Assembly (NCBI GenBank): GCA_025996865.1
Contig: BNTV01000008.1
Location: 1-64,000 of the forward strand
DNA length: 64,000 nt
Direction of reading: 5' to 3'
Source of the DNA: Bacteroidia bacterium
GTDB taxonomy: Bacteria; Bacteroidota; Bacteroidia; Bacteroidales; Azobacteroidaceae
Position numbers and translations under genes: made by a program. Below the pieces are notes generated by a model. It was given only the letters and a program-made list of their open reading frames with translations. It did not search any database and was not told the origin of the DNA. Shown here one piece after another: positions 10,525 to 52,424 of this stretch (within the stretch, counting starts at the first letter, position 1; each line of letters starts with the position of its first letter).

Positions 10525-10560
10525 CGGCCGATTTTAACTTATTTAACAAACAACAAACGT

Positions 10561-11121: not shown

Positions 11122-11166
11122 GAATAGAAATTCAATTTTTATTAATTTTTAAAATAATTTTAAACA

Positions 11167-11703: not shown

Positions 11704-11719
11704 AAAAAACACAATCACT

Positions 11720-11747
11720 CTGTCGTTTTTTGCAATAAAAACGACAG
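11720..11747 (+). terminator. Perfect 11-bp hairpin between the barrel and CsgG-like genes
   Basis: CTGTCGTTTTT (11720-11730) and AAAAACGACAG (11737-11747) pair perfectly around TGCAAT. There is no T run directly after it, so it may reduce rather than end transcription into the following gene. Confidence 0.5.
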
Positions 11748-11764
11748 GGTCTATCTGTTTCGAT

Positions 11765-12694: not shown

Positions 12695-12696
12695 AA

Positions 12697-28026: not shown

Positions 28027-28160
28027 AGTTTCGAGTTTCGAGTTTCGAGTTTCAAGTTTCGAGTTTCAAGTTTCGAGTTTCGAGTTTAAGGTTGAGTAAC
28101 CCAAACCTGAAACTTGAAACCTGAAACATAAAACATAAAACTTGAAACCTTAAACTAAAA
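28024..28160. repeat. Period-7 inverted repeat (hairpin), long copy
   Basis: Forward units from the previous stop to ~28093, loop GGTTGAGTAACCC, reverse units to ~28160. One of the longest intergenic copies. Confidence 0.88.
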
Positions 28161-34506: not shown

Positions 34507-34629
34507 GGTTTCGGGTTTTGACAGGGTGATGAAAATGATTGAAAATAATAAACGTAGAAGACGAAAATAAGATGTCGGGCAAAGCATTGAATACGGGACA
34601 AATAAAATAAGATTTTTAGAAAAACAAAT
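34494..34629. other. Left junction of the defence island
   Basis: The HydB-like gene ends within a few period-7 units (TTTGGGG, TTTGAGG, TTTCGGG), which have no inverted half. About 105 bp without a gene follow, then jetA. No attachment site, tRNA or clear promoter is recognised. Confidence 0.5.
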
Positions 34630-35829
34630 ATGAACACTTTTTTCAACATAAAAGAGTTATTTTCCGCTTTGAAAAAAGAGGAAAATTTGCTGTCGGAAAT
34701 GTTCAAAAAACGAAAATCGGTTAAAAATTTTCAATACGACTATGCCCTTGATTTAGTTGAAAACAACGACAACAGAATAAAATATCTATTAGACCGAGAA
34801 GTTGTCAGGCAAAACGGAAACAATCTCGAAATTGACGATTTGTTTCTGCAATTTTTTGAGCAGGTACTTGATGCCAACGAAGAAATCAATGTTTCATATA
34901 TCAACGAGAGCCTTGAAAAAATCACACAAAATATTCAATATTTTCTGAATGAAACGAATGAAAATCGCAAGTATGAATATCTGCGAAAAATCAAAACAAC
35001 ACTGCGAAATATCGGGAATATTACTTTGCGGAATGTGGTTGATTTGAAACGCAATGTAAATAACACATTCAAAAATGAGCCAAACTATAAAAACAAAAAG
35101 GCAAAACTCATAAACCTTGACAAAAAACGGAAAGACATTGCCAAACTGATAGAACAAACTGAAAAATTACTATCGGAACGGGAAGTTACTTTTTTTACAA
35201 CAGCAACAGATGAAGAATTGAACCGCATTATTGTTCAACTGAAAATGCAACTCGGAAAATGTTCTCACAATTTGATTGAAATCGAAAGGCAAATCATTGA
35301 TTTTCTAAATCAAATACAATATCAAAGTACTGTAATTGAAAAGTTAAGAAAAATAAAATATCTGAAAGACCAATATATTCTCGAAACTTCAACCGACATA
35401 AAAACAGTATTGTTAGATAACAATTCAGTAATTTTTGAGCCTAATCCACAATATCCGCTCAAACTTTCGCTTGAATTTTTGCAAACCAATGAAGATGCTT
35501 TTGCAAGCATTCAAAAAATTGCTAAAAGGGTAAAAGCAGGCGTGAAAATGAAACAACCGATTGCAGATAAAATTTCAAGCGAATATTTGCAAACTCAAAC
35601 AGAAGAAGAAATACAAATCAATCTCGAAGAGGTAAAAAACGGTTTTATGGCTTCGGGATACGCACTGTTTGACTTTGTTTTGAATTACAATTTTGCCAAA
35701 GAAGTATCCTTTGACGAAAAAATAACCATTTACTGTCAGTTGATTTCACAATACGAAACCATTTTTGAAATCACCGACAATTTTCAAGAAAAAGAGAATA
35801 TAGAATTTGCAGTAGTTTATCCTAAATAA
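34630..35829 (+). CDS. jetA: Wadjet-like JetA (kleisin-type subunit)
   Basis: 399 residues, helical and highly charged. FFNIKELFSALKKEENLLSEMFKKR at the start, a winged-helix-like REVVRQNGNNLEIDDLFLQFFEQVL, a long coiled-coil centre (about 80-240) and a C-terminal PNPQYPLKLSLEFLQ to YALFDFVLNYNF segment fit the DUF3375/MksF-like kleisin role. The family link rests on gene order with JetB, an SMC-type ATPase and a DUF2220 nuclease. It would close the SMC ring of the complex that detects small circular DNA. It starts 8 bp before jetB ends the spacing. Confidence 0.75.
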   Translation: MNTFFNIKELFSALKKEENLLSEMFKKRKSVKNFQYDYALDLVENNDNRIKYLLDREVVRQNGNNLEIDDLFLQFFEQVLDANEEINVSYINESLEKITQNIQYFLNETNENRKYEYLRKIKTTLRNIGNITLRNVVDLKRNVNNTFKNEPNYKNKKAKLINLDKKRKDIAKLIEQTEKLLSEREVTFFTTATDEELNRIIVQLKMQLGKCSHNLIEIERQIIDFLNQIQYQSTVIEKLRKIKYLKDQYILETSTDIKTVLLDNNSVIFEPNPQYPLKLSLEFLQTNEDAFASIQKIAKRVKAGVKMKQPIADKISSEYLQTQTEEEIQINLEEVKNGFMASGYALFDFVLNYNFAKEVSFDEKITIYCQLISQYETIFEITDNFQEKENIEFAVVYPK

Positions 35830-35837
35830 TTGAAAAA

Positions 35838-36404
35838 ATGAAAGTACCCGAACAGACAGCTGACATATTTAAGATTTTGAGCAAAGGGCAATTTATAAGT
35901 TCAAACAGTTCAAACAAAACTATCAGCGACCTGTACAATATCATTGACAGCGAAGACAATTTTGAGAATTTGCGTGAATACTTCAAGCATATTAATTTCA
36001 TTTTGGAACGAGGCGACGAATATTTTTATTTCAGTCGCAATGAAACAAAAATTGACCTCGAAAATAAAATTGAAAGGGCTTATAAATGGATTGACATGGT
36101 AGATTTTCTGAAAACTTTTGATAATTCTTTCGGTTCTGGTTATCGTTTTTCGCCGTCTGAAATTTTGGTTAAAATAAAACTTGACGCCGAACTCGAAACG
36201 AAGTTAGAAGCGTTGAACAAAAACGCTGAACCACAACAAGATATTTTAGACCGAGTTTTGAAAACCTTGACAGACGACAGTTTCATAGAACTTGAAAACG
36301 AACGAACAGGACAATACAAAGTGTTGGCGGCATTCAAATACATTGAACAACTGATATTAACCATTAACATTTCGGAGGAGGCGCAAAATGAAATACCTGA
36401 ATAA
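35838..36404 (+). CDS. jetB: Wadjet-like JetB (KITE-type subunit)
   Basis: 188 residues, the size of DUF4194/MksE-like subunits. It reads as tandem winged helices: IFKILSKGQFISSNSSNKTISDLYNII, LREYFKHINFILERGDEYFYFSR, FSPSEILVKIKLDAEL and LDRVLKTLTDDSFIELENERTGQYKVLAAFKYIEQLI. It follows jetA by 8 bp. Its last codons (NEIPE, stop) overlap an ATG that reads as the first codons of jetC, in the first of three copies of this junction. Confidence 0.75.
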   Translation: MKVPEQTADIFKILSKGQFISSNSSNKTISDLYNIIDSEDNFENLREYFKHINFILERGDEYFYFSRNETKIDLENKIERAYKWIDMVDFLKTFDNSFGSGYRFSPSEILVKIKLDAELETKLEALNKNAEPQQDILDRVLKTLTDDSFIELENERTGQYKVLAAFKYIEQLILTINISEEAQNEIPE

Positions 36405-36418
36405 AATAATCTTCATTT
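36387..36418. repeat. jetB/jetC junction repeat, copy 1
   Basis: ATGAAATACCTGAATAAAAT at 36388 plus AATCTTCATTT encodes the end of JetB in one frame and the first residues of JetC (MKYLNKIIFI) in another. It is identical over 32 bp to copy 2 and nearly so to the true jetC start. Confidence 0.95.
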
Positions 36419-36432
36419 TCCAAAAAAATTAC

Positions 36433-36440
36433 TACTTTTG
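36433..36440 (+). promoter_or_regulatory. Promoter -7 box of cassette 1
   Basis: TACTTTTG followed by CAGTGCAGAAAA. It lies 14 bp after repeat copy 1. The same arrangement is found after copy 2. Confidence 0.55.
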
Positions 36441-36505
36441 CAGTGCAGAAAAAGAATTTTTTCTACACATTCAAACTATTTATAATAAACATATTAAATA
36501 CAAAT

Positions 36506-36522
36506 TATTCCAATTTGGAATA
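36506..36522. promoter_or_regulatory. Palindrome before the cassette 1 HTH gene, possible operator
   Basis: TATTCCAA-T-TTGGAATA, a perfect 8-bp palindrome 12 bp before the start codon, suited to binding a dimeric regulator such as the HTH protein that follows. Confidence 0.45.
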
Positions 36523-36533
36523 TGGAATAAATT

Positions 36534-37070
36534 ATGATTGAAAGAGTAAAAAATAATGGTATGCGTCCGCAGGACATAGTTATTTTGTTGAAAATAATTG
36601 CTTCCGGTGGCAAAGTTCTGAGTAATCAGGAACTTGCCGAGTCGCTGTTAATCAGTGTTGGGGAGATCAGTAAAGCGTTGGAACGCAATCGTATTTCCGG
36701 TTTGATTAATCCAGAAAAAACGCAGGTCAATCGTTTGGCGTTGCGAGATTTCTTGATTTATGGCTTGAAATATGTTTTTCCGCCACAGATTGGGGCTTCC
36801 ACACGCGGCATTCCTACGGCTCATTCCGCTTCACCTGTTAAGGAAAAAATTGCCGAAAGCACAGAAAATTTTGTTTGGAAATATTACAAAGGCACACGGC
36901 GTGGCAATGCTATTCTGCCTTTGTATGCCAAAATTACACAATTTATCGAAAATGACCACGAACTCTACGAACTACTCGCCATTGTCGATACGTTGCGCAT
37001 TGGTAAGAGCCGTGAAAGAGAAATTGCAATCGAAGAATTAGATAAAAGAATAATTCACGAAATAAAATGA
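36534..37070 (+). CDS. HTH protein, possible antitoxin (cassette 1)
   Basis: 178 residues. The N-terminal ~65 residues form a winged helix (MRPQDIVILLKIIASGG, LSNQELAESLLISVGEISKALERNRISGLI). From NPEKTQVNRLAL onward it is almost identical, also in DNA, to the second cassette's homologue at 40742, while the N-terminal part has diverged. In cassette 2 this gene precedes a nucleotidyltransferase, so an antitoxin or regulator role like AbiEi is inferred. It overlaps the next gene by 4 bp. Confidence 0.6.
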   Translation: MIERVKNNGMRPQDIVILLKIIASGGKVLSNQELAESLLISVGEISKALERNRISGLINPEKTQVNRLALRDFLIYGLKYVFPPQIGASTRGIPTAHSASPVKEKIAESTENFVWKYYKGTRRGNAILPLYAKITQFIENDHELYELLAIVDTLRIGKSREREIAIEELDKRIIHEIK

Positions 37071-37648
37071 TTAGAGGAATAGAGAAATTTGGATATGTTT
37101 ATATACTGACCAACAAGAATAAAACGGTTTTATACATTGGTGTTACAAATAATTTGGTCAGACGGATATATGAACACAAAAATCATATATTCAAGAACTC
37201 GTTTACTGATAAATACAACTGCGAATACTGTATTTATTATGAGGAATTTGTTTATTTTGATTTGGCAATAGCCCGCGAAAAGGAACTTAAAAAATGGAAT
37301 AGACAGAAAAAAGAAGCATTGATAAACAAGAAAAATCCCGAATGGAAAGAGTTGGTAACAGAATGTGGCTTTGTGCGCACTGCAATTAATGATGAGATTC
37401 TTCGCTTCGCTGCTCTAAATGACAACCAGATTAATGATGAGATTCTTCGCTTCGCTGCTCTAAATGACGACCAGATTAATGATGAGATTCTTCGCTTCGC
37501 TCAGAATGACGGCGGCGTTTGTGATAATAAGGGCGAGGAAGGCGGCGGCGAAGCCGCCGCCTTCCTCGCCCCCTCCTCCATAGTGGTAAGTGTCATTCCG
37601 AATGGAGCAAAGCGGAATGAGGAATCTGATGATAAAACAATAGGTTAA
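37067..37648 (+). CDS. GIY-YIG nuclease with repeat-derived tail
   Basis: 193 residues. The first ~95 residues are a single-domain GIY-YIG nuclease of the UPF0213 type: GYVYILTNKNKTVLYIGVTNNLVRRIYEHK, then KYNCEYCIYYEEF and AIAREKELKKWNRQKKEALI. The remaining ~85 residues are translated from repeats: three 45-bp units giving NDEILRFAALND, and a perfect 19-bp hairpin giving GEEGGGEAAAFLAP. The tail is unlikely to be functional. It occupies the place that a nucleotidyltransferase holds in cassette 2. Confidence 0.85.
   Translation: MIRGIEKFGYVYILTNKNKTVLYIGVTNNLVRRIYEHKNHIFKNSFTDKYNCEYCIYYEEFVYFDLAIAREKELKKWNRQKKEALINKKNPEWKELVTECGFVRTAINDEILRFAALNDNQINDEILRFAALNDDQINDEILRFAQNDGGVCDNKGEEGGGEAAAFLAPSSIVVSVIPNGAKRNEESDDKTIG
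37385..37510. repeat. Three tandem 45-bp units inside the GIY-YIG gene
   Basis: Units start at 37385, 37430 and 37475 and share ATTAATGATGAGATTCTTCG with CTTCGCT. An inverted, diverged copy (GGAGCAAAGCGGAATGAGGA) lies at about 37602-37625. The third unit ends in CAGAATGAC. Confidence 0.9.
37531..37571. repeat. Perfect 19-bp inverted repeat, GC-rich
   Basis: GGGCGAGGAAGGCGGCGGC, loop GAA, GCCGCCGCCTTCCTCGCCC. It stands out sharply from the AT-rich island and lies inside the GIY-YIG reading frame. Confidence 0.95.
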
Positions 37649-37773
37649 TGAAAATTCAAAATGATATGACGGATTTTTGCAAAAACATTTCAGGAAGTTT
37701 GCCACAATTGGATTTGCCTGTTCCGTCTGAAATTTTTTTTGAGGTTTTGTGTAAGGCGTTTAATGTGAAATAG
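37648..37773 (+). pseudogene. Remnant of a nucleotidyltransferase 3' end
   Basis: A 41-residue frame beginning MKIQNDMTDFCKNISG, whose ATG overlaps the GIY-YIG stop (TAATG). Its end, EVLCKAFNVK, and 20 identical bases (TTTTGTGTAAGGCGTTTAAT) match the end of the nucleotidyltransferase at 41281-41991 (AILCKAFNF). This suggests that cassette 1 once carried that gene. It could still be translated as a small peptide. Confidence 0.6.
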
Positions 37774-37774
37774 A

Positions 37775-38827
37775 ATGTATTTTAATATGAGCAAATATCA
37801 AGAAAATGAAAGAAACAGAATGATTGAATTAGTAAAGTCAAATTCGATCTTCTATGGCGGTAAATACGGCATTCTTATCAAAAGAAATGGTGGAGAAAAA
37901 CTGCACAAGGAAATTCTTTTAGATGAACAAAATAATATTTACAAGCCAATTTTATCCGATGTATTGAAATATTTTAAGGATAACAAAATTTCGTGGTGGG
38001 GTGGCTATAAACCGACAGGACATACATTATCTTCGCAAATTGCCTGCTTAAATCATTTATTTTCAATAAAAAATGATAAAAATGCCGTGCTTGCGGTTGT
38101 GCAAAGCATTTGTGCAGATTTCACCGATGTTTTGGAACTTGATAATGATACGGACAGCACAAAAGCGTTTATTTCATTTGAAGTTGTGAGTAAAAACGAT
38201 TATTTGAATGAATGTAAAGACAAGCAAACGCCAACGCGAGGTGCAAACTGCACTTCAATTGACGCTTTGATTCTTGCAAAAAACAAAGACGGTAAAAAGT
38301 TTTTGCTTCCAATCGAATGGAAATATACGGAATTTTACAATAGTACCGACAAATCTACCGAAGACGGTAAAGACCACGAGAAAGGTAGTCAGGCAAGCGG
38401 AAAAGAACGTTTGCGCAGATATTCTGAATTGATTAAAAATTCCGAACAATTAAGTTTGAAACGAGAAAATTACATTAGTTCTGTATACTTTTTCGAGCCG
38501 TTTTATCAACTTATGCGCCAAACGCTTTGGACGGAACAAATGATTGCAAATCCTGTAAGCGAGAAAATTCAAGCAGACGATTTTATTCACATTCACGTTA
38601 TTCCGAAACAAAATCACGATTTATTGAAAGATGATTTGGATAAAAACAGACGGCGAAAAGGTTATACAAATGGAGCACAAATAGGATGTTTGGAAGAAAT
38701 TTGGAAATCGTGTTTGATCAATAAGAACAAATACAAAGTAATTTCGCCCGAAGAATTATTGCAAAATATTGATAAGCAAAAATATAGTGATTTATTAACT
38801 TATTTACAAACAAGATATTGGCAATGA
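37775..38827 (+). CDS. PD-(D/E)XK-like nuclease, cassette 1
   Basis: 350 residues. TSIDALILA (D163) and LPIEWKYTEF (E181, K183) give the D-x17-ExK arrangement of the PD-(D/E)XK fold. Upstream HTLSSQIACLNHLFSI parallels HLNSSQAMCINFFFPL in the cassette 2 homologue. It resembles the PGN_0703-type putative restriction endonucleases known from Bacteroidota. No methylase is nearby. The stop overlaps the phosphoesterase start as ATGA, an arrangement repeated exactly in cassette 2. Confidence 0.72.
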   Translation: MYFNMSKYQENERNRMIELVKSNSIFYGGKYGILIKRNGGEKLHKEILLDEQNNIYKPILSDVLKYFKDNKISWWGGYKPTGHTLSSQIACLNHLFSIKNDKNAVLAVVQSICADFTDVLELDNDTDSTKAFISFEVVSKNDYLNECKDKQTPTRGANCTSIDALILAKNKDGKKFLLPIEWKYTEFYNSTDKSTEDGKDHEKGSQASGKERLRRYSELIKNSEQLSLKRENYISSVYFFEPFYQLMRQTLWTEQMIANPVSEKIQADDFIHIHVIPKQNHDLLKDDLDKNRRRKGYTNGAQIGCLEEIWKSCLINKNKYKVISPEELLQNIDKQKYSDLLTYLQTRYWQ

Positions 38828-39597
38828 AAATGACAATCCAATACGCCTCCGACCTCCATTTGGAATTTCCCGAAAACAGGAAATTTCTGAAAGAAAACCC
38901 ACTGAAACCAGTGGGCGATGTGCTTGTGCTTGCAGGCGACATTGGTTATTTGGCTGAATACGCGCTGTATGCCGATTTTTGGGATTATGTGTCGGCAAAT
39001 TTCCGCGAAACAATCGTTGCAATCGGCAACCACGAACTTTATACTTATTTCGACTTGGCGGATATTTCCGATGGTTTGGTTATGACAATCCGCTCCAATG
39101 TGAAAGTGTATTATAACGCTGTTGTTCAGATAGATAATGTTGATTTTATAGTTTCAACGCTTTGGTCGAAAATTCCGATTACCGATGCCTATTTAACAGA
39201 AAAAGGTGTAAATGATTTTTACAGAATAATGTACAAAGGCAAGCGATTGAGTTACAATGTTTTCAACGAGGAACACGAGCGTTGTTTCGATTTTATCCGT
39301 AGGGGCGTTGCGTGCAACGCCCAAAAAACAGAACGAAAAACAGTTGTAGTAACACACCACGTTCCCTCGTTTGCGCTATCTTCGCCCGATTTTGCAAGCA
39401 GCAGAATTAACGGCGCATTTACCACAGAACTTGGCAATTACATTGCCGACAGCCCGATTGATATTTGGATTTATGGACATTCGCACCGGAATATTGACAA
39501 AGTGATTGGAAATACGAAATGCGTAAGTAATCAACTCGGATATGTTTCGCATAATGAGCATATTAGTTTTGATAATGAAAAAATAATTATAATTTGA
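38824..39597 (+). CDS. Calcineurin-like metallophosphoesterase, cassette 1
   Basis: 257 residues from the ATG overlapping the nuclease stop. All motifs of the fold are present: ASDLHLEF (DxH), VLAGDIGYL (GDxx), AIGNHELYTY (GNHE), VTHHVPSF and YGHSHRNID (GHxH). Substrate may be a nucleotide, nucleic acid or phosphoprotein. It is nearly identical to the gene at 43618. A GGGGCGTTGC palindrome at 39299-39322 is translated as part of RRGVACNAQ in both copies. Confidence 0.88.
   Translation: MKMTIQYASDLHLEFPENRKFLKENPLKPVGDVLVLAGDIGYLAEYALYADFWDYVSANFRETIVAIGNHELYTYFDLADISDGLVMTIRSNVKVYYNAVVQIDNVDFIVSTLWSKIPITDAYLTEKGVNDFYRIMYKGKRLSYNVFNEEHERCFDFIRRGVACNAQKTERKTVVVTHHVPSFALSSPDFASSRINGAFTTELGNYIADSPIDIWIYGHSHRNIDKVIGNTKCVSNQLGYVSHNEHISFDNEKIIII
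39299..39322. repeat. Coding palindrome GGGCGTTGC-GT-GCAACGCCC
   Basis: Nine-base perfect arms inside the phosphoesterase gene; the same element is at 44087-44110 and a variant is at 53356-53383 in the FtsX gene. Confidence 0.9.
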
Positions 39598-39612
39598 TAT
39601 AAAAAGGAAATT

Positions 39613-40629
39613 ATGCCCAAAAGAAATGAAATAAAAAGAGCAACTCCTGATTTTGTAATTTACGAAACAGACAATAACGTAGCCAAAGTGTCGGTACGTT
39701 TGGAAGAGGAGACGGTTTGGCTGACGCAAAAACAGTTGGCTGAAATTTTTGATACAACCAAACAAAATATCGGACAGCATGTTAAAAATATTTTGGAAGA
39801 AGGTGAATTGAACAGAAATTCAGTTGTAAAGTTTTTCTTTACAACTGCCACCGATGGCAAAAATTACAATACCGAGCATTACAACCTTGATATGATTATC
39901 TCGCTCGGCTATCGTATCAACTCTAAGGTTGCAACCAAATTTCGCCAGTGGGCAACGGAACGCTTGAAAGAGTACATTGTCAAGGGTTTTACACTTGATG
40001 ACGAGCGGCTGAAAAATGGCGGCGGACGTTATTTTCGTGAACTGCTGCAGCGTATTCGCGACATTCGTTCTTCGGAACGCAATCTGTGGCAACAAGTTAC
40101 GGATATTTACGCTACAAGTATTGATTACGAACCGAAAAGTCATATCACAAGCGATTTTTTTGCTACTGTACAAAACAAAATGCACTACGCCGTTCACCGT
40201 CAAACCGCTGCCGAAGTAATTTACAACCGTACCGATAACGAAAAACCGATGGTTGGAATGACCAATTTTAAAGGCAATTACATTACCAAAGAGGATGTTC
40301 GCATTGCCAAAAATTATCTTTCGGAACTCGAACTGCAAAAACTGAATTTACTTACCGAAGGTTTTCTCGGTTATGCCGAATTGCAGGCACTGGAACAAAA
40401 GCCGATGACAATGAACGATTGGAAAAAGTTTTTAGATAATCAACTGCGAATGTTGAATAAAGATATTTTGACTGATAAAGGCAAAATATCTCACCAACAA
40501 GCAGTAGATAAAGCCGAAAAAGAATTTGAAATTTACAGGCAACGCGAAATGCGACAGTTGGAAAGCGATTTCGACAAGGCTATAAAAGCATTAACAGAAA
40601 AAAAATCGAACAATGAAATACCTGAATAA
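39613..40629 (+). CDS. RhuM-family protein
   Basis: 338 residues. TPDFVIYETDNNVAKVSVRLEEETVWLTQKQLAEIFDTTKQNIGQHVKNIL is the RhuM/DinD-like N-terminal part; YNLDMIISLGYRINSKVATKFRQWATERLKEYIVKGF and the C-terminal helical half are full family matches. RhuM-type proteins occur in defence and pathogenicity islands; molecular role unknown. The last five residues (NEIPE) and the stop lie inside junction repeat copy 2, so the gene end is taken from the jetB end. No counterpart exists in cassette 2. Confidence 0.85.
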   Translation: MPKRNEIKRATPDFVIYETDNNVAKVSVRLEEETVWLTQKQLAEIFDTTKQNIGQHVKNILEEGELNRNSVVKFFFTTATDGKNYNTEHYNLDMIISLGYRINSKVATKFRQWATERLKEYIVKGFTLDDERLKNGGGRYFRELLQRIRDIRSSERNLWQQVTDIYATSIDYEPKSHITSDFFATVQNKMHYAVHRQTAAEVIYNRTDNEKPMVGMTNFKGNYITKEDVRIAKNYLSELELQKLNLLTEGFLGYAELQALEQKPMTMNDWKKFLDNQLRMLNKDILTDKGKISHQQAVDKAEKEFEIYRQREMRQLESDFDKAIKALTEKKSNNEIPE

Positions 40630-40643
40630 AATAATCTTCATTT
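40612..40643. repeat. jetB/jetC junction repeat, copy 2
   Basis: Identical to 36387-36418 over 32 bp. It forms the end of the RhuM gene and lies just before the cassette 2 promoter. Confidence 0.95.
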
Positions 40644-40657
40644 CTAAAAAAAAGTTG

Positions 40658-40665
40658 TATCTTTG
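40658..40665 (+). promoter_or_regulatory. Promoter -7 box of cassette 2
   Basis: TATCTTTG followed by CCGTGCTGAAAA, equivalent in place and flanks to the -7 box after copy 1. Confidence 0.55.
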
Positions 40666-40741
40666 CCGTGCTGAAAAGTATAATTATCTGCATAATTAAA
40701 ATGCTTTTAACAAATGAATTAAATGCAAAATATTTCAATTT

Positions 40742-41281
40742 ATGAAACGTGAAATAACAAACAGAAACAAACATAATGGAATGCGCCCGCAAGATATAGT
40801 TGTGCTACTAAAAATAGTTTGTTTTAAAGACAAACTTTGGAACTATACCGAGTTGGCAAATGCGTTGCTATTGAGTGTCGGCGAGATAAGTAATGCGTTA
40901 GAACGCAACGCTATGGCAGGCTTAGTAAATCCAGAAAAAACGCAGGTCAATCGTTTGGCGTTGCGTGAATTTCTGATTTATGGCTTGAAATATGTTTTTC
41001 CGCCACAGATTGGGGCTTCCACACGCGGCATTCCTACGGCTCATTCTGCTTCACCTGTTAAGGAAAAAATTGCCGAAAGCACAGAAAATTTTGTTTGGAA
41101 ATATTACAAAGGCACACGGCGCGGTAATGCTATCCTACCTCTATATGCCAAAATTCCGCAATTTATCGAAAATGACCGCGAACTCTACGAACTACTCGTC
41201 ATTGTTGATACGCTGCGCATTGGAAAGAGCCGTGAAAGAGAAATTGCAATCGAAGAATTAGATAAAAAATTGAACGCATAA
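40742..41281 (+). CDS. HTH protein, possible antitoxin (cassette 2)
   Basis: 179 residues, homologue of 36534-37070. The winged-helix half (MRPQDIVVLLKIVCFKDKLWNYTELANALLLSVGEISNALERNAM) differs clearly, while the last ~115 residues are nearly identical. The sharp change in similarity at NPEKTQVNRLAL points to recent gene conversion. It adjoins the nucleotidyltransferase gene with a 1-base overlap (TAATG), as in AbiEi/AbiEii-type pairs. Confidence 0.62.
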   Translation: MKREITNRNKHNGMRPQDIVVLLKIVCFKDKLWNYTELANALLLSVGEISNALERNAMAGLVNPEKTQVNRLALREFLIYGLKYVFPPQIGASTRGIPTAHSASPVKEKIAESTENFVWKYYKGTRRGNAILPLYAKIPQFIENDRELYELLVIVDTLRIGKSREREIAIEELDKKLNA

Positions 41282-41991
41282 TGGCAAGCAATATTGACAA
41301 AATAATGGTTGTAGCTGAGGCATTGGGTGATTTGCGCAGTCAAGTAGTTTTTGTTGGCGGCTCGGTGGCGGAACTCTATGCCGCACAGCCCGAACTTTCG
41401 GACATTCGCCCCACGATTGACGTGGATTGTGTTGTTGATATTCAAATTGTTACCTATTCAGATTACGCTCGTTTAGAAGAAAAGTTACGGAAATTGGGGT
41501 TTGCAAACGATACAAGCGAAAATGCACCGATTTGTCGAAAAATATACAGAGGATTTATTGTAGATTTTATGCCTGTAAATCCTGATATTCTTGGTTTTAG
41601 CAATCAATGGTATAAAGCAGGTTACGAAAACCGAATAGAAAAGCAAATGCCTGACAATACAGCGATTTACATTTTCCCTGTGGAATATTACGTTGCCACA
41701 AAATTTGAGGCATTAAACAGCAGAGGCGGCACAGATATTCGCGGTAGCCACGATTGGGAAGATATTGTGTATGTGCTTGACAACTGCGATTATTTTTTGT
41801 TGAATTTACAAAAATGCAAAAATGAGGCTTTGCTTGATTATTTTAAAAATCAATTTAATAAATTATTGAATAATAGCAATATAAGAGAAATAATTTATTC
41901 GGTTTTACCTTTTAATTCAGAAAAAGAACAGGTTGATAAGATTTTTGCAATTTTGTGTAAGGCGTTTAATTTTCAAATTTGTATTATATAG
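41281..41991 (+). CDS. Nucleotidyltransferase, possible AbiEii/MenT-like toxin
   Basis: 236 residues. The nucleotidyltransferase core is VVFVGGSVAELYA (G26, G27, S28) followed by TIDVDCVVD (D47, D49). PVEYYVATKFEALNSRGGTDIRGSHDWEDIVYVLD matches the helical region with a conserved lysine in MNT/AbiEii-like proteins. Such toxins transfer nucleotides to tRNA or proteins. The upstream HTH protein is the likely antitoxin. A copy of its 3' end survives in cassette 1. Confidence 0.72.
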   Translation: MASNIDKIMVVAEALGDLRSQVVFVGGSVAELYAAQPELSDIRPTIDVDCVVDIQIVTYSDYARLEEKLRKLGFANDTSENAPICRKIYRGFIVDFMPVNPDILGFSNQWYKAGYENRIEKQMPDNTAIYIFPVEYYVATKFEALNSRGGTDIRGSHDWEDIVYVLDNCDYFLLNLQKCKNEALLDYFKNQFNKLLNNSNIREIIYSVLPFNSEKEQVDKIFAILCKAFNFQICII

Positions 41992-42014
41992 TAACAAAAT
42001 AAGAAAATACAATT

Positions 42015-42731
42015 ATGACAAAAGATTACCTCATTGCGGCAGAGGATTTTTTCAATAAGGGAGATGCTTATTTGAAAGAAAAAGATTATGACAAAGCGAT
42101 AGAATGTCATAAGAAAGCATTAGAAATAGCCCCCGAATTGTATGGAAAAGATACAATAGAAACGGCGTATAAGCATTTGGGAAAAATTTATTTGGGAAAA
42201 GAAGAATACATTAAGGCAAAAGAATATCAAAAAAAGGCTATTGAAGTAAAACATTCTTTGACAAATGTCGCAGCAATGGCGTATAATAATCGTGGAATTG
42301 CTTTTCTTAATGATAAAAAAGATGAAAAAGCCATCACTTGTTTTAAGAAAGCACTTAAAATAAAGTCGGATTATAAAGAGGCTCAACAAAACTTGCACAA
42401 AGTATATTGCACAAAAGAGGAAATTAAGAAAGCAAAAGAAGAAAAGAAAGTCCTTGAAATAGAGAGTAAATCACAGTCTTTATACAGTACAGGAAATGAA
42501 TATTTTAAAAATAAAAAATACAAGGAGGCAATAAAATATTACCAAAAGTCTATCAAAGTAAAGCCAGATTATGCGGCGGCATACAATAATATGGGGACTG
42601 CATACAGGAATGAGGGAAAAAGCGACGAAGCATTGAAATGTTACGAAAAAGCATTGGAAATCAACCCCAATTATAAAATTGCAGCAGAGAATATTTATAT
42701 GATTAAACGATTAATAAAACAAAAAAACTAA
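42015..42731 (+). CDS. TPR protein
   Basis: 238 residues, very AT- and lysine-rich. Four to five TPR motifs: FFNKGDAYLKEKDYDKAIECHKKALEI, AYKHLGKIYLGKEEYIKAKEYQKKAI, AYNNRGIAFLNDKKDEKAITCFKKAL, GNEYFKNKKYKEAIKYYQKSIKV and AYNNMGTAYRNEGKSDEALKCYEKAL. No catalytic domain or export signal. A scaffold or sensor role in cassette 2 is a guess from context. Confidence 0.85.
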   Translation: MTKDYLIAAEDFFNKGDAYLKEKDYDKAIECHKKALEIAPELYGKDTIETAYKHLGKIYLGKEEYIKAKEYQKKAIEVKHSLTNVAAMAYNNRGIAFLNDKKDEKAITCFKKALKIKSDYKEAQQNLHKVYCTKEEIKKAKEEKKVLEIESKSQSLYSTGNEYFKNKKYKEAIKYYQKSIKVKPDYAAAYNNMGTAYRNEGKSDEALKCYEKALEINPNYKIAAENIYMIKRLIKQKN

Positions 42732-42748
42732 ACTAAACAACAAATAAG

Positions 42749-43621
42749 ATGAGTTACACAGAAAAAATAAAGACAGAATTATCAGAATACAAAGAACAAA
42801 AATATCCCCATTTGGCTAATGGCGAATATACTTACAAAGGTAAAACTGATTATTATCATCACATTTTACCAAAAATTTGTGGAGAATTGAATCTGATTGA
42901 AACATTTCGAAATGATTTTTTGGAAAGTGATTTGTCAAAAATTAAATTTCACCAATATTTTCACCATTTAAATTCTTCACAAGCAATGTGTATCAATTTC
43001 TTTTTCCCATTGTTTATAAAACAAAAACTTGATATAATATTGAAAAAATTCAAACTTGACAACGAAGTAGTGAATTATGTTTCCGTTAAATTTGAAAAAG
43101 AGTCAAATATAGATGATAAAAAACAGATTCGCGAAAAAATTCCAGAACTTAAACAAAATCAAACAATACCCACGAGTTTTGATTTTTATTTTGAAACCCA
43201 ATCTGGTATAAAGTTTTATTTTGAAATAAAATATACTGAGAATGAATTTGGTTGTGCGAAAAAAGACAAGAACTCTAAAGATTATGAAAATAAATATAAA
43301 CTTAAATACGAAAGGATATATGAAGAAGCCGCAAAAGGAAAAATCATTTCTAACGATGAAACTTCCTTTTTAAGTCAATATCAAATAATGAGAAACTTAA
43401 TTCACGTTGACGATAATTCTTATGTTGTATTTGTTATTCCCGAAAAAAACGAAAGAGTTTATTCGCAAGCAACAACAGCCAATAAATTTGTTGTAGAAGG
43501 ATATGAAAAACATGTAAAAGTATTGACTTGGGATAGTTTATATAAATTAATTGATAATCAAAACTTTGATTGTAATTTAAAAAAACATTTTGACGAGTTT
43601 AAACAAAAATACAAATTATGA
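42749..43621 (+). CDS. PD-(D/E)XK-like nuclease, cassette 2
   Basis: 290 residues. PTSFDFYFE (D145) and FYFEIKYTENEFG (E159, K161) give a D-x13-ExK core. HHLNSSQAMCINFFFPLFIKQ matches the PGN_0703-type putative endonucleases. It is a distant relative of the nuclease at 37775, sharing the SSQ and ExKYTE segments but little else, although the adjoining phosphoesterases are nearly identical. Its stop overlaps the phosphoesterase start as ATGA. Confidence 0.75.
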   Translation: MSYTEKIKTELSEYKEQKYPHLANGEYTYKGKTDYYHHILPKICGELNLIETFRNDFLESDLSKIKFHQYFHHLNSSQAMCINFFFPLFIKQKLDIILKKFKLDNEVVNYVSVKFEKESNIDDKKQIREKIPELKQNQTIPTSFDFYFETQSGIKFYFEIKYTENEFGCAKKDKNSKDYENKYKLKYERIYEEAAKGKIISNDETSFLSQYQIMRNLIHVDDNSYVVFVIPEKNERVYSQATTANKFVVEGYEKHVKVLTWDSLYKLIDNQNFDCNLKKHFDEFKQKYKL

Positions 43622-44385
43622 AAATCCAATACGCCTCCGACCTCCATTTGGAATTTCCCGAAAACAGGAAATTTCTAAAAGAAAACCCGCTCAAACCTGC
43701 GGGTGATGTGCTTGTGCTGGCGGGTGACATTGGCTATTTGACTGAATACACGCTTTATGCCGATTTTTGGGATTATGTGTCGGCAAATTTCAGGGAAACG
43801 ATTGTGGCAATCGGCAACCACGAACTTTATACTTATTTCGATTTAGCGGATATTTCCGATGGATTGGTTATGACAATCCGTCCCAATGTAAAGGTGTATT
43901 ATAATGCTGATGTTCAGATAGATAATGTTGATTTTATAGTTTCAACGCTTTGGTCAAAAATTCCGATTGTTGATGCCTATATGACTGAAAAAGGTGTAAA
44001 TGATTTTTACAGAATAATGTACAAAGGCAAACGATTGAGTTACAATGTTTTTAATGAAGAACACGAGCGTTGTTTTGATTTTATCCGTAGGGGCGTTGCG
44101 TGCAACGCCCAAAACACAGAACGAAAAACAGTTGTAGTAACACACCACGTTCCCTCGTTTGCGCTATCTTCGCCCGATTTTGCAGGCAGCCGCATTAACG
44201 GCGCATTTACCACAGAACTTGGCAATTACATTGCCGACAGCCCGATTGATATTTGGATTTACGGACATTCGCACAGAAACATTGACAAAACAATCGGAAA
44301 TACAAAATGCGTAAGTAACCAATTAGGATATGTTTCACACAATGAACATATTGATTTCAATAATGAAAAAATAATTATAATTTGA
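43618..44385 (+). CDS. Calcineurin-like metallophosphoesterase, cassette 2
   Basis: 255 residues with the complete motif set (SDLHLEF, AGDIGYL, GNHELY, THHVPSF, GHSHRN). It differs from the 38824 gene at only a few positions. The stop is followed after ~10 bp by the true jetC start, so in the present arrangement jetC is read from behind this gene. Confidence 0.88.
   Translation: MKIQYASDLHLEFPENRKFLKENPLKPAGDVLVLAGDIGYLTEYTLYADFWDYVSANFRETIVAIGNHELYTYFDLADISDGLVMTIRPNVKVYYNADVQIDNVDFIVSTLWSKIPIVDAYMTEKGVNDFYRIMYKGKRLSYNVFNEEHERCFDFIRRGVACNAQNTERKTVVVTHHVPSFALSSPDFAGSRINGAFTTELGNYIADSPIDIWIYGHSHRNIDKTIGNTKCVSNQLGYVSHNEHIDFNNEKIIII
44087..44110. repeat. Coding palindrome, second phosphoesterase copy
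   Basis: GTAGGGGCGTTGCGTGCAAC plus GCCC, same site in the gene as 39299-39322. Confidence 0.9.
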
Positions 44386-44394
44386 TATAAAAAC

Positions 44395-44422
44395 AATGAA
44401 ATACCTGAATAAAATAATTTTC
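44395..44422. repeat. jetB/jetC junction repeat, copy 3 (true jetC start)
   Basis: Same core as copies 1 and 2 with one C-to-T change (AATTTTCAT instead of AATCTTCAT). From here the reading frame continues into the full jetC. Confidence 0.93.
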
Positions 44423-47400
44423 ATAAACTCTGCCGATAAATCGTTGCCATACTCCGAAGTCAATCTTGACGGCAATGTGCATTTTATTGGAACACAAGGA
44501 GTTGGTAAAAGTACTTTGTTACGTACAATTTTGTTTTTTTACAATGCAGACAAAACAAAACTTGGAATAAAGGCGGGGCAAAAATCGTATGACGAGTATT
44601 ATTTTCCGTACCAAAACTCGTTTATTATTTACGAAGTGCAGACCGACAACAGCGCTTTTTGTGTGCTGACCTTCAAATCGCAAGGCAGAGTAGCATTTCG
44701 TTTTTTCGATTCTGCCTACAACAAAGAAAATTTTATTGACAGCGAGGGCAAAGCGTTTGAAACTTGGGACAAAATTCGCGACAGTTTTGGCAGAAATATC
44801 AGTTACACACGCATTATCAGCAGTTATGAGGAATTTCGCAACATACTTTACGGCAACAATAAAGAACTGCAAAAGGAATTTCGCAAATATGCGCTCATTG
44901 AAAGCAAACAATATCAGAACATTCCCCGCACAATCAGCAATGTTTTTCTGAATACAAAATTAGATGCGGAATTTGTTAAAGAAACCATTATCAAGTCGTT
45001 GAACGAAGACGAAATAAAGATTGATTTGACGACCTATTCTCAACATTTAAAAGACTTTGAAGTCCATTTGAACGATATAAAAAAATGGACAGACAAAAAC
45101 CGTAACGGCGAAAATTCACTTGAAAAACAGGCAGATAAAGTATCAGAACACTATTCTGCACTTAAATATTTGGAACAGGAAAAAGAAGATTTAGCAAAAA
45201 AAATCGGTTGGGCATTGAAAAATGTGAATGAGCAACAACCCAAATTTCAGGAGTTATTGCATTCCGAAACTTTGAAAAAAGGACAAAAACAGGGAAAATT
45301 AGACGAAATCGACAATGATTTTGATAAAAAGAAAGGAAATATTCAAAAAGAAATCGGCGAATTTTCGAGCAAAATAAAAGAAATTTCAACCAAAAGAAAA
45401 GAATATGATTTATTGAATATCAATCAAATAATTGAACGAGTTGCAAAGAAAAATAGTTTAGAACTTGAACAGAAAAATCTTGCAAACGAAAAGCAAATTT
45501 TGACAACCGCATTTGCCGACATTGAAAATCGTTACAATGCTTTGCTTACTCAATTGGCAAACCAATTCAAAGAATTTGAGAATAACAAACACACAGAAAA
45601 AAATACGGCTAATGCTAATTTTACAAATTTCCGAATTGAAATTACAAAACAATACGAAACAATTTTTGAAAACATAAGAACGCAAAACAAAGCGGAACTT
45701 GAGACAGCACAATCGCTTGTAAAAGAGAAAGAAAATGCCATTACAAATCAAAAAATCAAGCGAGCCGAAACCAAAAATAAACGATTTTACGAAACTGAAA
45801 TTGAAGGTTGCAATAAAGATATTTTTGAATTAAAAAGCAAAATTTCAAATGCAGAAAACACTATTGTTCAGGCGAAAAAAGAGCAAAAAAATCTTGAAAC
45901 AGCGTGGCAACTCGAAGAAAAAGGCATAAAAGCAGACAATAACCGTGAAATAGAAAAGCAAACGGAAAAACAGACAAAACTCAAATCGAAAGTCGCTGAA
46001 ATAGAGAACAAAATTGAAAATTGCAAAGATTCGCTTTATGGTTGGCTTGGGCGAGAAATACCCGATTGGCAAAACACAATCGGACAAGTAATTGATGATA
46101 ATGTATTATTTAACAAAAACTTAAATCCGCAAAAAGCTCAATCCGTCATTGCGGGCAACGACCCGCAATCTCCTCTGAATTTTTACGGAATTAATATTGA
46201 TTTACAAGAAATTGGCAAAGAGATAAAAACCATAGCCGATTACGAAAATGAAAAAGTCGAATGGCAAAATCAAATTACGGCAATCCAAAAATCAATTTCT
46301 GCTTTGAACGCTCAAATGGACAAAGATTTGGAAAATTTAAGAAGAAAATATCACACAAAAATCAAAGAGCAGAAAGACATAATTTCACACAACGAATATC
46401 AGAAAACGATAAACACTCCCAAAGTTGAGGCAAAAAAAGTGGAGTTATCAGAACTCGAAAATAAAGCAAAATCGGAAAAGCAAAAATCACTGCAAGATAT
46501 TGAAAATGAAATCAATCGTTTGTCTGAGGGAAAAATAAAAGACGAAGAAAAAGTTGAAAAAATAAAACAAATTATTGAGAAACAACTGAAAGACAAACAA
46601 AAAGAGAAAGAGGCAAAAATTAAAGCGGAACAGCAAAAATTGTTTGATGTTGAAACAGAAATAAATTCGTGCATTCGTGGCAAAAAAACAGAAATTGATA
46701 ACCAAGTAGCCCAAATTAAACAACAGAAAAATCAAGAACTTGACACAAAAGGCGCTGATACAAAACGAATTTCAGAAATTGATTTACGAATTTCGGAATT
46801 GGAAAGCGAACTTGCTTTTATCGAAACAAATCGAGATAAAGTGGCTGAATATAACAAAGATAAACGAGAACTTTTTGACCGTGAAGCAGAGTTCAAAAAC
46901 CAAAAAACAGGCTTTGAAAGCCAATTAGAAACTGAAAAACAGAAATACGAACAGCAAAAATCAAAATTGATTGCCGAACTCGGAGAAATAAAAGCAAATA
47001 TTCAATCTTTTGAGAATAAAATCAATGAGTATAACAATGATTTACAACAATTTGAGTCGTTTTCAAAAACCGAAATTTATACCTCGATAGAACAATTTGT
47101 TTCCGATTTTTCAGAAGAGAACAAAAGCGATTTTTCGTGCGTAAAACTTATTACGGAAATCAACACAAACGACAACTCCAATACAAAGCGATACAACGAT
47201 TTACAAGAAGCAATCAATAAATTTGCAGGCAATTTTTCTGAAAACAACCTTTTCAGTTTCAAAACCAAGTGCATTACACGCGAAGAATATTTTGCCTTTG
47301 CCGACAATTTGAAAGAATTTATTGACGAAAATAAAATCGGCGAATACAAACGGCGTTTTGATGAACGATTTGCTGAAATAATTAAAATAATAGGTAGAGA

Positions 47401-48088
47401 AACTCAGCAACTTATTGAAAAAGAGGGAGAAATAAGTCAAGTAATCAATGAAATAAACAACGATTTTGTTACACGAAATTTTGTCGGTGCAATCAAAAGC
47501 ATGGAACTTAAAACCAACGAAAGCGCCAATGTAATTTATCGCTTACTTGTTGATATTAAGAAATATAATGACGAAAACACACACGATTTAGGTGCGATTA
47601 ATTTGTTTTCGACAGGAAACACAGCAACTGCAAACGAAAAAGCAATTGAATTTCTGAAGCAATTAATCAAAGCCATGTCCGAGACCAAAGAACGAGAAAT
47701 TACACTTTCGGATTCTTTTGAATTACTGTTCAAAATTGTTGAAAACGACAATGATACAGGCTGGGTTGAAAAATTGTCGAATGTCGGTTCGGAAGGGACA
47801 GATACTTTGGTTAAAGCAATGATTAATATAATGTTACTCAATGTTTTCAAAGAACGTGCCGCACGCAAAAACAAAGGCGATTTCTCTTTGCATTGTATGA
47901 TGGACGAAATCGGCAAACTGCACCCCAATAATGTAAAAGGCATTCTGAAGTTTGCCAACGACCGCAATATCTTGCTAATCAACAGCTCTCCAACTTCCTA
48001 TAATGCAGCAGATTACAAATATACATACATTTTACGCAAAGATGTCAATAATAAAACAAGTATCAACAGAATAGTAACTAAAAAATGA
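44396..48088 (+). CDS. jetC: Wadjet-like JetC (SMC/MukB-type ATPase)
   Basis: 1230 residues. The Walker A motif is FIGTQGVGKSTLL at about 31-42. Very long charged coiled coils cover about 235-1000, interrupted near 520-600 by a hinge-like segment (YGWLGREIPDWQNTIGQVIDD). The C-terminal head has a signature-like SNVGSEGTDTLVKAMINIMLL and the Walker B HCMMDEIGKLHPNN. This is the motor that extrudes DNA loops in Wadjet complexes. Its start codon lies in the third copy of the junction repeat. The stop overlaps jetD as ATGA. Confidence 0.85.
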   Translation: MKYLNKIIFINSADKSLPYSEVNLDGNVHFIGTQGVGKSTLLRTILFFYNADKTKLGIKAGQKSYDEYYFPYQNSFIIYEVQTDNSAFCVLTFKSQGRVAFRFFDSAYNKENFIDSEGKAFETWDKIRDSFGRNISYTRIISSYEEFRNILYGNNKELQKEFRKYALIESKQYQNIPRTISNVFLNTKLDAEFVKETIIKSLNEDEIKIDLTTYSQHLKDFEVHLNDIKKWTDKNRNGENSLEKQADKVSEHYSALKYLEQEKEDLAKKIGWALKNVNEQQPKFQELLHSETLKKGQKQGKLDEIDNDFDKKKGNIQKEIGEFSSKIKEISTKRKEYDLLNINQIIERVAKKNSLELEQKNLANEKQILTTAFADIENRYNALLTQLANQFKEFENNKHTEKNTANANFTNFRIEITKQYETIFENIRTQNKAELETAQSLVKEKENAITNQKIKRAETKNKRFYETEIEGCNKDIFELKSKISNAENTIVQAKKEQKNLETAWQLEEKGIKADNNREIEKQTEKQTKLKSKVAEIENKIENCKDSLYGWLGREIPDWQNTIGQVIDDNVLFNKNLNPQKAQSVIAGNDPQSPLNFYGINIDLQEIGKEIKTIADYENEKVEWQNQITAIQKSISALNAQMDKDLENLRRKYHTKIKEQKDIISHNEYQKTINTPKVEAKKVELSELENKAKSEKQKSLQDIENEINRLSEGKIKDEEKVEKIKQIIEKQLKDKQKEKEAKIKAEQQKLFDVETEINSCIRGKKTEIDNQVAQIKQQKNQELDTKGADTKRISEIDLRISELESELAFIETNRDKVAEYNKDKRELFDREAEFKNQKTGFESQLETEKQKYEQQKSKLIAELGEIKANIQSFENKINEYNNDLQQFESFSKTEIYTSIEQFVSDFSEENKSDFSCVKLITEINTNDNSNTKRYNDLQEAINKFAGNFSENNLFSFKTKCITREEYFAFADNLKEFIDENKIGEYKRRFDERFAEIIKIIGRETQQLIEKEGEISQVINEINNDFVTRNFVGAIKSMELKTNESANVIYRLLVDIKKYNDENTHDLGAINLFSTGNTATANEKAIEFLKQLIKAMSETKEREITLSDSFELLFKIVENDNDTGWVEKLSNVGSEGTDTLVKAMINIMLLNVFKERAARKNKGDFSLHCMMDEIGKLHPNNVKGILKFANDRNILLINSSPTSYNAADYKYTYILRKDVNNKTSINRIVTKK

Positions 48089-48951
48089 CAAAAATTCCGT
48101 TACATATTGCAGAGAAATTATTATTGCTCCAGCAAGGTGCAACAATCGCGGCGAGTTCAGCAAAACACGTTATAATTGAAGAACTTGTTGCGGAAAACAT
48201 AGTGCAAAAAAATGGCAGAGTTCAGAAAAAATTATCGCTTGCAAATACAAATTCATTAACTACCTATTTGCAAAATAAATTCGGTATCACTGATTTACAG
48301 CACTATATTGAGATTCTAAAACAAGAAGATCTCACAAGAAGTGATTTCACAGAAGTTTCAAGCAATTCAAAACTTAAACACATTCGTACTTTTAAAGGTT
48401 TTTTGATAAATTGTTATGAACCAATTCAAGCAAAAATCAATGGAAGTGAAACAGTAATCAACCCAACAGCAGGAACTTTTCAATTTATTTACGATTTTGA
48501 GAATTTTGTTATTCCACAAAACATTACGATTGTTGGTATTGAAAATCCCGAAAATTTTCGACACATTGAAAAGCAAAAATATTTATTTGAGAATATACAA
48601 CCTTTATTTGTAAGTCGTTATCCTCAAAATCAAAGCAAAGATTTACTCAAATGGTTACAAATAATTCCTAACAAATACCTGCATTTTGGCGATTTTGATT
48701 TTGCAGGTATTGGAATTTATTTGAATGAATATAAAAAATACCTTGGCAATAAGGCAAGTTTTTTTATACCTGAAAATATTGAACAACTGATTGAAAACTA
48801 CGGAAATAAAGAATTATATGACATTCAAAAAATCAATTTTGACAAACAAACGATTATCGAAGACAATCTTTTAAAATTGATTTTGTTAATTCACAAATAC
48901 AAGAAAGGATTGGAACAGGAAATATTTATAAAACAACTAAATCATAAATAA
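48085..48951 (+). CDS. jetD: Wadjet-like JetD (DUF2220 TOPRIM-type nuclease)
   Basis: 288 residues, shorter than the usual ~350-400. An N-terminal winged-helix region is followed by a TOPRIM-like core: ITIVGIENPENFRHI (catalytic glutamate) and YLHFGDFDFAGIGIYLNEYK (GDxDxxG). JetD cuts small circular DNA once the SMC ring has extruded it. Coupled to jetC by an ATGA overlap. The reduced N-terminal arm may define a distinct Wadjet subtype. Confidence 0.8.
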   Translation: MTKIPLHIAEKLLLLQQGATIAASSAKHVIIEELVAENIVQKNGRVQKKLSLANTNSLTTYLQNKFGITDLQHYIEILKQEDLTRSDFTEVSSNSKLKHIRTFKGFLINCYEPIQAKINGSETVINPTAGTFQFIYDFENFVIPQNITIVGIENPENFRHIEKQKYLFENIQPLFVSRYPQNQSKDLLKWLQIIPNKYLHFGDFDFAGIGIYLNEYKKYLGNKASFFIPENIEQLIENYGNKELYDIQKINFDKQTIIEDNLLKLILLIHKYKKGLEQEIFIKQLNHK

Positions 48952-49007
48952 TTATGCCCACACACGCAGACACAAAGGCGAGCAGGTAACAAAAAAAGAA
49001 TATGAAT

Positions 49008-49973: not shown

Positions 49974-50027
49974 GTTTTATGTTTCAAGTTTCAAGTTTCA
50001 GGTTTCAGGTTTTAAGTTTTAAGTTGT
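49972..50027. repeat. Period-7 repeat forming the start of the next lipoprotein
   Basis: Forward units TTTCAAG, TTTCAGG, TTTTAAG run from the previous stop into the signal-peptide codons of the propeller lipoprotein. Confidence 0.85.
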
Positions 50028-52304: not shown

Positions 52305-52424
52305 GGTTTCAAGTTTCAAGTTTAAGGTTTAAGGTTAGGACGAGCAAAAACCCGAAACTCGAAACCTGAAACCCGAAACGTAAAACCCGAAACATAAAAC
52401 GTAAAACGTAAAACGTAAAAAACA
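52305..52424. repeat. Period-7 inverted repeat (hairpin)
   Basis: Forward units, loop around GGTTAGGACGAGCAAAAACCC, then reverse units ending in three copies of GTAAAAC before the next start codon. Confidence 0.85.

Follow-up and report, generated by a model that had tools for sequence, protein, structure and literature searches.

The analysed DNA, a stretch of 64,000 nucleotides (nt) from a contig of a Bacteroidia bacterium (hereafter the window; coordinates are window positions and its genome is G000), encodes a Wadjet-like operon in which the genes jetB and jetC are separated by 8 kb. The intervening DNA holds two units of other genes, and a repeat of about 30 bp, here called J, borders them. 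The host genes and the repeats are the following (aa, amino acids):

34630..35829, plus strand: jetA-like gene, 399 aa, assigned by its position at the head of the Wadjet-like block; it precedes jetB in most relatives
35838..36404, plus strand: jetB, MksE family (Pfam MksE 1.5e-43), with its end ..NEIPE* within repeat copy 1
36387..36418, plus strand: J1, the end of jetB and the first codons of a truncated jetC frame
40612..40643, plus strand: J2
44395..44424, plus strand: J3, the functional start of jetC
44396..48088, plus strand: jetC, MukB-like DUF3584 protein, 1230 aa (Pfam 3.3e-59; weak JetC1)
48085..48951, plus strand: jetD-like gene, DUF7281 (Pfam 8.6e-10; weak JetD1)

As judged from its sequence, the operon is Wadjet-like and of a divergent type. 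It comprises four genes with the MukB-like JetC in third place, an order kept in most relatives, and its JetB is of the KITE/MksE type. We call it divergent because the PADLOC matches of JetC and JetD are weak but consistent in relatives and JetA has none. JetC1 was weakly matched in 6/6 members (best E-value 3.6e-7), the JetD1 model PDLC00524 weakly in 8/8 members (best 8.2e-6) and PDLC00533 in 7/8 (best 8e-8). The jetA-like product found no match in Pfam, PADLOC or NCBIfam; none of 11 JetA members had a Jet match at E 0.1, and the one PDB sequence match was insignificant. The PADLOC JetB models gave no match for JetB, and PDB sequence searches with JetA, JetB, JetC and JetD returned nothing, or coiled-coil-type or chance matches at E 0.008 or worse.

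The pattern ATGAAATACCTGAATAAAATAATYTTCAT, copied from the window, occurs without mismatch at 36388-36416, 40613-40641 and 44396-44424, and allowing up to 3 mismatches revealed no further window site (expectation from 100 shuffles, 0). The initial annotation had described such a sequence at 36387, 40612 and 44395 and was accurate in its details: J1 and J2 are identical across 32 nt (36387-36418 and 40612-40643), J3 and J2 are alike in 32 of 33 nt over 44392-44424 with one base off, and the spacings of 4225 and 3783 nt agree with its units of about 4.2 and 3.8 kb. In J1, the jetC frame opens at 36388 and jetB stops at 36404, which gives a 17-nt overlap coding in both frames (NEIPE* and M-R/K-YLN). 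As judged from the flanks joined in silico, the proposed exchange between copies 1 and 3 would leave jetB (188 aa) and jetC (1230 aa) intact. Past the repeat the two units differ: while J1 equals J2 over 32 nt, the next 97 aligned positions of their leaders are 71% identical (gap columns excluded, as for the HTH- and MPE-gene identities below). Had J diverged to the extent of the leader, 32 matches out of 32 would arise by chance about 2 times in 100,000, and an unchanged stretch of 14 nt past the jetB stop about once in 120. The identity of J1 and J2 beside such leaders fits a recent exchange at J.

At 0-1 mismatch, J was found at this kind of junction only. In its own genome, a 23-nt pattern at up to 3 mismatches matched just the three J copies, and a 21-nt pattern under the same limit matched six extra places, five of them at 3 mismatches and one, with 2, in the jetC relic of contig C73. 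The search was extended to 45 genomes of the family, each of which was also searched for jetC and all of which are draft assemblies. Copies with 0-1 mismatch lie solely in filled jetBC loci (three in G000, three in G026, two in G426); at 2 mismatches the jetC relics on C73 and C33 and one place in G430 were matched, and at 3 mismatches matches are scattered, with some match in 25/45 genomes and in 15/45 for a reversed control pattern. A dispersed repeat unrelated to jetBC, which the initial annotation had named as the finding that would speak against it, was therefore rejected; J derives from jetBC.

The jetC relics stand at a second locus, as 36 codons of the 5' end in G000 (L094, C73, ~9650-13060) and 56 codons in G026 (L095, C33, ~11240-13670). 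GNAT and GIY genes precede both relics, as do differing PDC-S01 AAA/DUF4143 ATPases, and the outer neighbours differ between G000 and G026. A jetD-like gene (65%) with a jetC fragment (~residues 918-1033) was seen near a contig end in G017 (L097, C64).

Comparison of jetB-jetC junctions in relatives, the check proposed by the initial annotation, showed that an empty junction is the rule. Among the best 80 of 386 jetC loci from a genome contig search, jetB directly precedes jetC in 78, and two have inserts (L004, L062). The 78 empty junctions comprise 66 with a 17-nt overlap, 3 with 14 nt, 8 with 4 nt and one with a 7-nt gap; these lengths were counted from jetB stop codons and replace a table based on BLAST ends (54 with 17 nt, 12 short alignments). 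One empty junction is L018 (jetA 90%, jetC 74%), to which the outer flanks of the window, joined at the repeat, align ungapped at 467/600 nt with both frames open. In an order-wide jetC search, 21 of 26 match rows were analysed, the other five being the window and four rows that lack the jetC start; L208 lacks it as well, so 20 were usable. Of these, 19 have no insert and one (L206) has one. The two samples overlap (L190 and L053 have an identical junction sequence), and their counts are not additive.

Within the family, the junction is present in 3 of the 45 genomes (G000, G026 and G426), and all three are filled, with contents that are all different. G026 (locus L004) belongs to the same genus as the window genome, has jetB and jetC at 97% and 95% identity and carries two inserts. 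In G426 (locus L142), a pair of ATPase genes, with nSTAND6 and AAA_16 matches above cut-off, lies between complete overlaps, and the second gene ends in a degenerate repeat copy (16/17 nt) that adjoins the real one. In L062, a DUF1016_N gene (PDC-S02) lies between two overlaps. A complete overlap stands at either border in all four filled junctions whose host genes overlap (G000, G026, G426 and L062). In the distant host of L206, jetB and jetC do not overlap, and the embedded DUF1016/YhcG gene has no border repeat, which fits the idea that the overlap creates the repeat. In G426, jetC is broken after about residue 158 (C183; L142, 3569-3729) and the contig ends soon after, by decay or assembly error.

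Inserts between jetA and jetB in other hosts were looked at in seven loci and were not used as cases of border repeats. In L048 (8916-9457), a 22-nt direct repeat with no relation to host coding sequence encloses a small extra gene; for a similar small gene in L010, no exact repeat over 12 nt was found, and the other five loci have spacers of 141-309 nt.

The two units of the window contain the following features:

36419..36533, plus strand: leader of unit 1, with TACTTTTGC at 36433-36441
36534..37070, plus strand: HTH1, PADLOC family PDC-M21A (PADLOC 4.3e-42)
37067..37648, plus strand: GIY-YIG gene (Pfam 3.8e-16)
37654..37770, plus strand: nucleotidyltransferase-like gene, 3' remnant (117 nt, 78.6% identical to the intact copy in G423)
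37775..38827, plus strand: RE1, PD-(D/E)XK nuclease of the REase-ARP family (Pfam 2.4e-46)
38830..39597, plus strand: MPE1, calcineurin-like phosphoesterase (Pfam 6.4e-12; weak PDC-S10 7.2e-9)
39613..40629, plus strand: RhuM family gene, PDC-S05 (Pfam 3.2e-105; PADLOC 4.2e-140)
40644..40741, plus strand: leader of unit 2, with TATCTTTGC at 40658-40666
40742..41281, plus strand: HTH2, paralogue of HTH1 by alignment (no match in Pfam or NCBIfam)
41281..41991, plus strand: PDC-M21B gene (PADLOC 9.5e-50; no Pfam match)
42015..42731, plus strand: TPR protein (Pfam TPR_1 1.7e-44)
42749..43621, plus strand: RE2, REase-ARP nuclease (Pfam 7.3e-39); G026 has a different nuclease
43618..44385, plus strand: MPE2, phosphoesterase with a 4-nt overlap with RE2 (Pfam 5.1e-12; 91.8% nt identity to MPE1)

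The PADLOC matches (M21A, M21B, S05 and weakly S10) support the earlier view that both units carry defence-type genes. The label HTH comes from sub-threshold NCBIfam matches of HTH1 (0.0077 and 0.0091), which has none in Pfam; the PDC-M21B gene we take, from its motifs, to be nucleotidyltransferase-like. Unit 1 is a mosaic of HTH1, the GIY-YIG gene, the nucleotidyltransferase remnant, nuclease and phosphoesterase, followed by the RhuM gene with the repeat as its last codons. The final residues NEIPE of RhuM are supplied by J2, and NNEIPE is the reading of the repeat in the jetB frame. Among the best 120 of the 7996 RhuM homologues that passed the threshold, the tail NNEIPE occurs in three, namely the window, G026 and one further close sequence; hence the fusion of the RhuM gene with the junction took place near its own natural end. 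The GIY-YIG gene opens with the first codons of a nucleotidyltransferase-like gene (MIRGIEKF, versus MVRGIEKF in L130 and L131), and the bases directly downstream of MPE1 and MPE2 are the same before different genes follow. The cassette genes scanned, several of them without a Pfam family, include none recognised as an integrase or recombinase.

In the window (37067-37770) and in G005 (L131, 11056-11592), the GIY-YIG gene lies within the nucleotidyltransferase-like gene, of which the first eight codons and the 3' end are kept. The end of the GIY-YIG frame (37385-37571) contains 45-nt tandem repeats and a perfect 19-nt inverted repeat.

The Wadjet block common to the window and G026 extends from 34629 to 48959, with differing flanks in G026, and is colinear at 94-98% apart from two replaced blocks. 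The shared parts are 97.7% identical up to 36407, inside J1, 95.5% over 39607-42732, across J2, and 94.2% over 43617-48959. Block A, which starts within J1 and stops shortly ahead of RhuM, holds HTH1, the GIY-YIG gene, the nuclease and MPE1 in the window and Olokun in G026 (OloA 4.3e-44, OloB 4.2e-135), and in block B, from the TPR gene to MPE2, a different REase-ARP nuclease stands in G026. The MPE2 gene is 94.2% identical in nt to that of G423 and 91.2% to that of G026, in a stretch that overall is 94.2% identical to G026, a modest sign of separate exchange. The proposal that the operon is a landing site for swappable cassettes thus holds as far as relatives carry differing defence genes in the slot; J is not the sole point of exchange, as the replaced blocks have just one of their four borders in it.

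Units with the same ends exist inside and outside the Wadjet operon. Five HTH...MPE units were compared, two of the window and one each of G026, G423 and G005. Their HTH genes are 84.6-95.9% and their MPE genes 86.8-94.2% identical, while the middles of unit 2 and G005, and of G026 and G005, gave no alignment and those of units 1 and 2 aligned over 29 nt. Extended similarity of the middles was found between unit 2 and G026 (1443 nt at 94%) and between G423 and G005 (1197 nt at ~80%). In G423, which has no jetC match, the same shell surrounds Tiamat (TmtA 2.6e-257) and occupies the corresponding chromosomal site, with homologues of the window genes at 32089 and 49002 on its two sides. Directly left of its HTH leader, after a PDC-S22 (KilA-N) gene, lies a 59-nt, 85% copy of the end of the upstream gene, and in G005 a 35-nt, 94% copy of the nucleotidyltransferase-like start takes this place. 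Partial copies of gene borders accompany the HTH...MPE cassette in three settings, and the copied sequence is different each time; by sequence comparison, these differing copies speak for illegitimate or homology-assisted capture over a fixed attachment site. A further HTH homologue (67%) in G429 stands with an M21B-type gene, and no MPE match was found at that locus.

The gap 34507-49001 between a NuoF-like gene (32089-34506) and a 2Fe-2S gene (49002) looks like a defence hotspot. It holds nothing in G427, G006 and G431 (L145, L147 and L148 among the loci), where homologues of both genes are adjacent, the Wadjet block in the window, and PDC-S22 and the Tiamat unit in G423 (L130). The gene at 49002 has a match at E <1e-20 in 6 of the 45 family genomes, the window included; the homologue is broken by an internal stop in G006 and G012 and split in two in G431. 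No upstream gene was seen in the 1.5 kb fetched for G012. Short repetitive stretches at ~28015-28156 and 52303-52913 match several places in G423 (L130).

We consider it fairly likely that the Wadjet-like operon, itself a block that occurs in differing chromosomal surroundings, has repeatedly captured other defence genes at the jetB/jetC overlap, where the resulting repeats then allow stacking and swapping. Capture would occur by rare illegitimate or homology-assisted insertion at this junction. As jetB depends on its stop codon and jetC on its start codon, survivors would be limited to insertions that duplicate the overlap. The duplicated overlap and the conserved HTH and MPE ends would then serve as handles for homologous recombination (RecA-type or at short repeats). 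Such recombination could join cassettes of different alleles head to tail, as in RhuM-J2-HTH2, swap one cassette for another, as in Olokun versus HTH1...MPE1, or delete cassettes back to an intact jetB-jetC. More tentatively, the overlapping, dual-coding stop-start junction may be a self-copying landing pad, in which each capture makes the repeats for the next addition, swap or removal.

Several observations weigh against this explanation. The identity of J1 and J2 could reflect two recent insertions at one unchanged target, and coding constraint on part of J would also weaken the argument drawn from it. The three replaced-block borders away from J (MPE1/RhuM, the TPR end and the MPE2 start) are at gene ends, J1 of G026 has one change and matches over ~20 nt, and the middles of unit 1 and G005 are alike over 1496 nt (70%), so that not all middles were swapped. 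The left copies in L142 and L062 match jetC over just 17-20 nt, about the minimum both host genes require; therefore, J need not be the recombination site there. The control without overlap is the single locus L206, and the species of the window showed no allele that was excised, circular or empty. A 32-nt repeat can mislead a short-k assembler, which matters in draft assemblies: the adjacency of RhuM, J2 and HTH2 in two assemblies argues against misassembly at J2, but a single assembly underlies the jetB-J1-HTH1 join.

Ordinary accretion of a defence island, in which the repeats are the unavoidable footprint of insertion between overlapping genes and play no role in exchange, would account for the near-minimal left sides of L062 and L142, for the absence of a repeat between the non-overlapping genes of L206 and for the three block borders off J. 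It leaves unexplained that J2, needed by neither jetB nor jetC, is still kept over 32 nt, that J1 and J2 are unchanged for 14 nt past the jetB stop before the next bases diverge, and that one homology break between the window and G026 falls inside J1; we regard it as unlikely. Plain tandem duplication is improbable to a like degree. Here, one HTH...MPE insertion would have been doubled by unequal crossing-over at J, followed by divergence and by gain of RhuM, GIY and other genes, with no ongoing swapping. In its favour, the two units are homologues at either end (81% and 92% in blastn), and the bases after MPE1 and MPE2 agree before different genes follow. However, G026 has Olokun and not unit 1 ahead of RhuM-J2-unit 2, the middle of unit 2 aligns with that of unit 1 over the 29 nt alone, and unit 1 is closer to the stand-alone cassette of G005 than to unit 2, in its nuclease and in the placement of GIY in the nucleotidyltransferase-like gene.

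A dedicated site-specific element, with J as the attachment core for a recombinase supplied in trans and the units as non-autonomous integrative cassettes, seems to us very improbable. The three J copies bordering the units would suit it, as would the identity of J1 and J2 over 32 nt next to 71% identical leaders, the fact that both ends of the identity in J fall at the same base, and the three contents of one junction in a single family. Yet the cassette genes scanned include no recognised integrase, the match in L062 and L142 stops near the limit of the coding overlap, and the HTH...MPE unit borders other duplications in G423 (59 nt) and G005 (35 nt), so that J is not a fixed core present at every site. 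Capture at the overlap followed by recombination between repeats is the reading we prefer.

The separation of jetB and jetC bears on the expression of the latter. Just past the repeat, both leaders contain TAnnTTTGC (36433 and 40658), presumably the Bacteroidetes -7 motif, and because of this box in both leaders, promoters linked to the HTH genes might drive jetCD. Across the window, the motif shows no clear enrichment (24 versus 18.0 expected; 11 of 100 shuffles reach 24), and a scan for the sigma-70 consensus was uninformative (68 versus 53.2 expected). On the plus strand from jetB to jetC, the terminator search gave one match, inside the M21B gene at 41411, and 12 versus 11.1 expected in the whole region; matches no more frequent than chance give no evidence of a transcription stop between jetB and jetC. 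We propose that jetCD is probably transcribed by read-through. No known RNA family reached its gathering score at 34000-50000.

The locus yields a concrete rule, namely duplication of an overlap followed by recombination between the repeats, for which empty, differently filled and one non-overlapping control junction are at hand. This rule bears on how immune genes enter other immune operons while leaving them intact, and duplicated stop-start overlaps are a possible search handle for embedded defence genes. If the landing-pad idea is true, the locus would be an integrase-free array of immune-gene cassettes with a Wadjet operon as chassis, and the same rule could apply to other overlapping defence gene pairs. 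If such arrays change within populations, they would let new immune repertoires arise quickly and without mobile-element genes.

In integrons, gene cassettes stand in tandem, parted by repeated sites. The present locus is similar in its tandem cassettes with repeated sites between them; it differs in that no integrase was recognised and the repeat consists of host coding sequence. The embedding of defence genes in operons of other defence systems is known under the term "guilt-by-embedding" (Payne et al. 2024, preprint 10.1101/2024.01.29.577857, as cited in PMC12988326 and PMC12255303), and the PDC names also stem from Payne et al. 2024, as cited in PMC10855318. As in the cases ascribed to that study, foreign defence genes stand here between the genes of one system: the host is uninterrupted elsewhere (78/80 loci), and the inserts match Olokun in G026 and PDC models (M21A, M21B, S05 and S10 in the window; S01, S02 and S22 in relatives). 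Unlike those cases, as far as the citing papers describe them, the host is Wadjet-like with overlapping genes, copies of the overlap border the inserts, the cassettes are stacked, and the content is swapped between close relatives. At the hsdS/hsdR junction of type I restriction operons, a DarTG2 island with RptR has been reported, and the junction was called a potential recombination hotspot (PMC12255303). There, too, one site within a defence operon takes different modules; RptR is the first gene of the island, whereas here an HTH-like gene lies inside each cassette, and the accessible part of that paper makes no mention of border repeats, whereas here overlap copies border the inserts. For the effector-immunity arrays of the type VI secretion system in Vibrio, growth by homology-facilitated illegitimate recombination was proposed (PMC5361080), and the capture suggested here, by analogy with the accessible part of that account, resembles it. 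Both involve modules stacked through one homologous and one illegitimate join, with remnants of earlier genes left behind; the Vibrio modules encode effector-immunity pairs in the 3' region of a cluster, while ours lie between two overlapping genes that both stay intact. Among titles and abstract starts on Wadjet insertions, embedded defence systems and overlap or target duplication, none describes this arrangement, in a search whose coverage excludes bioRxiv and most subscription papers. The embedding of defence genes is itself already known, and a Wadjet insertion site bordered by copies of its own gene overlap appears to be new.

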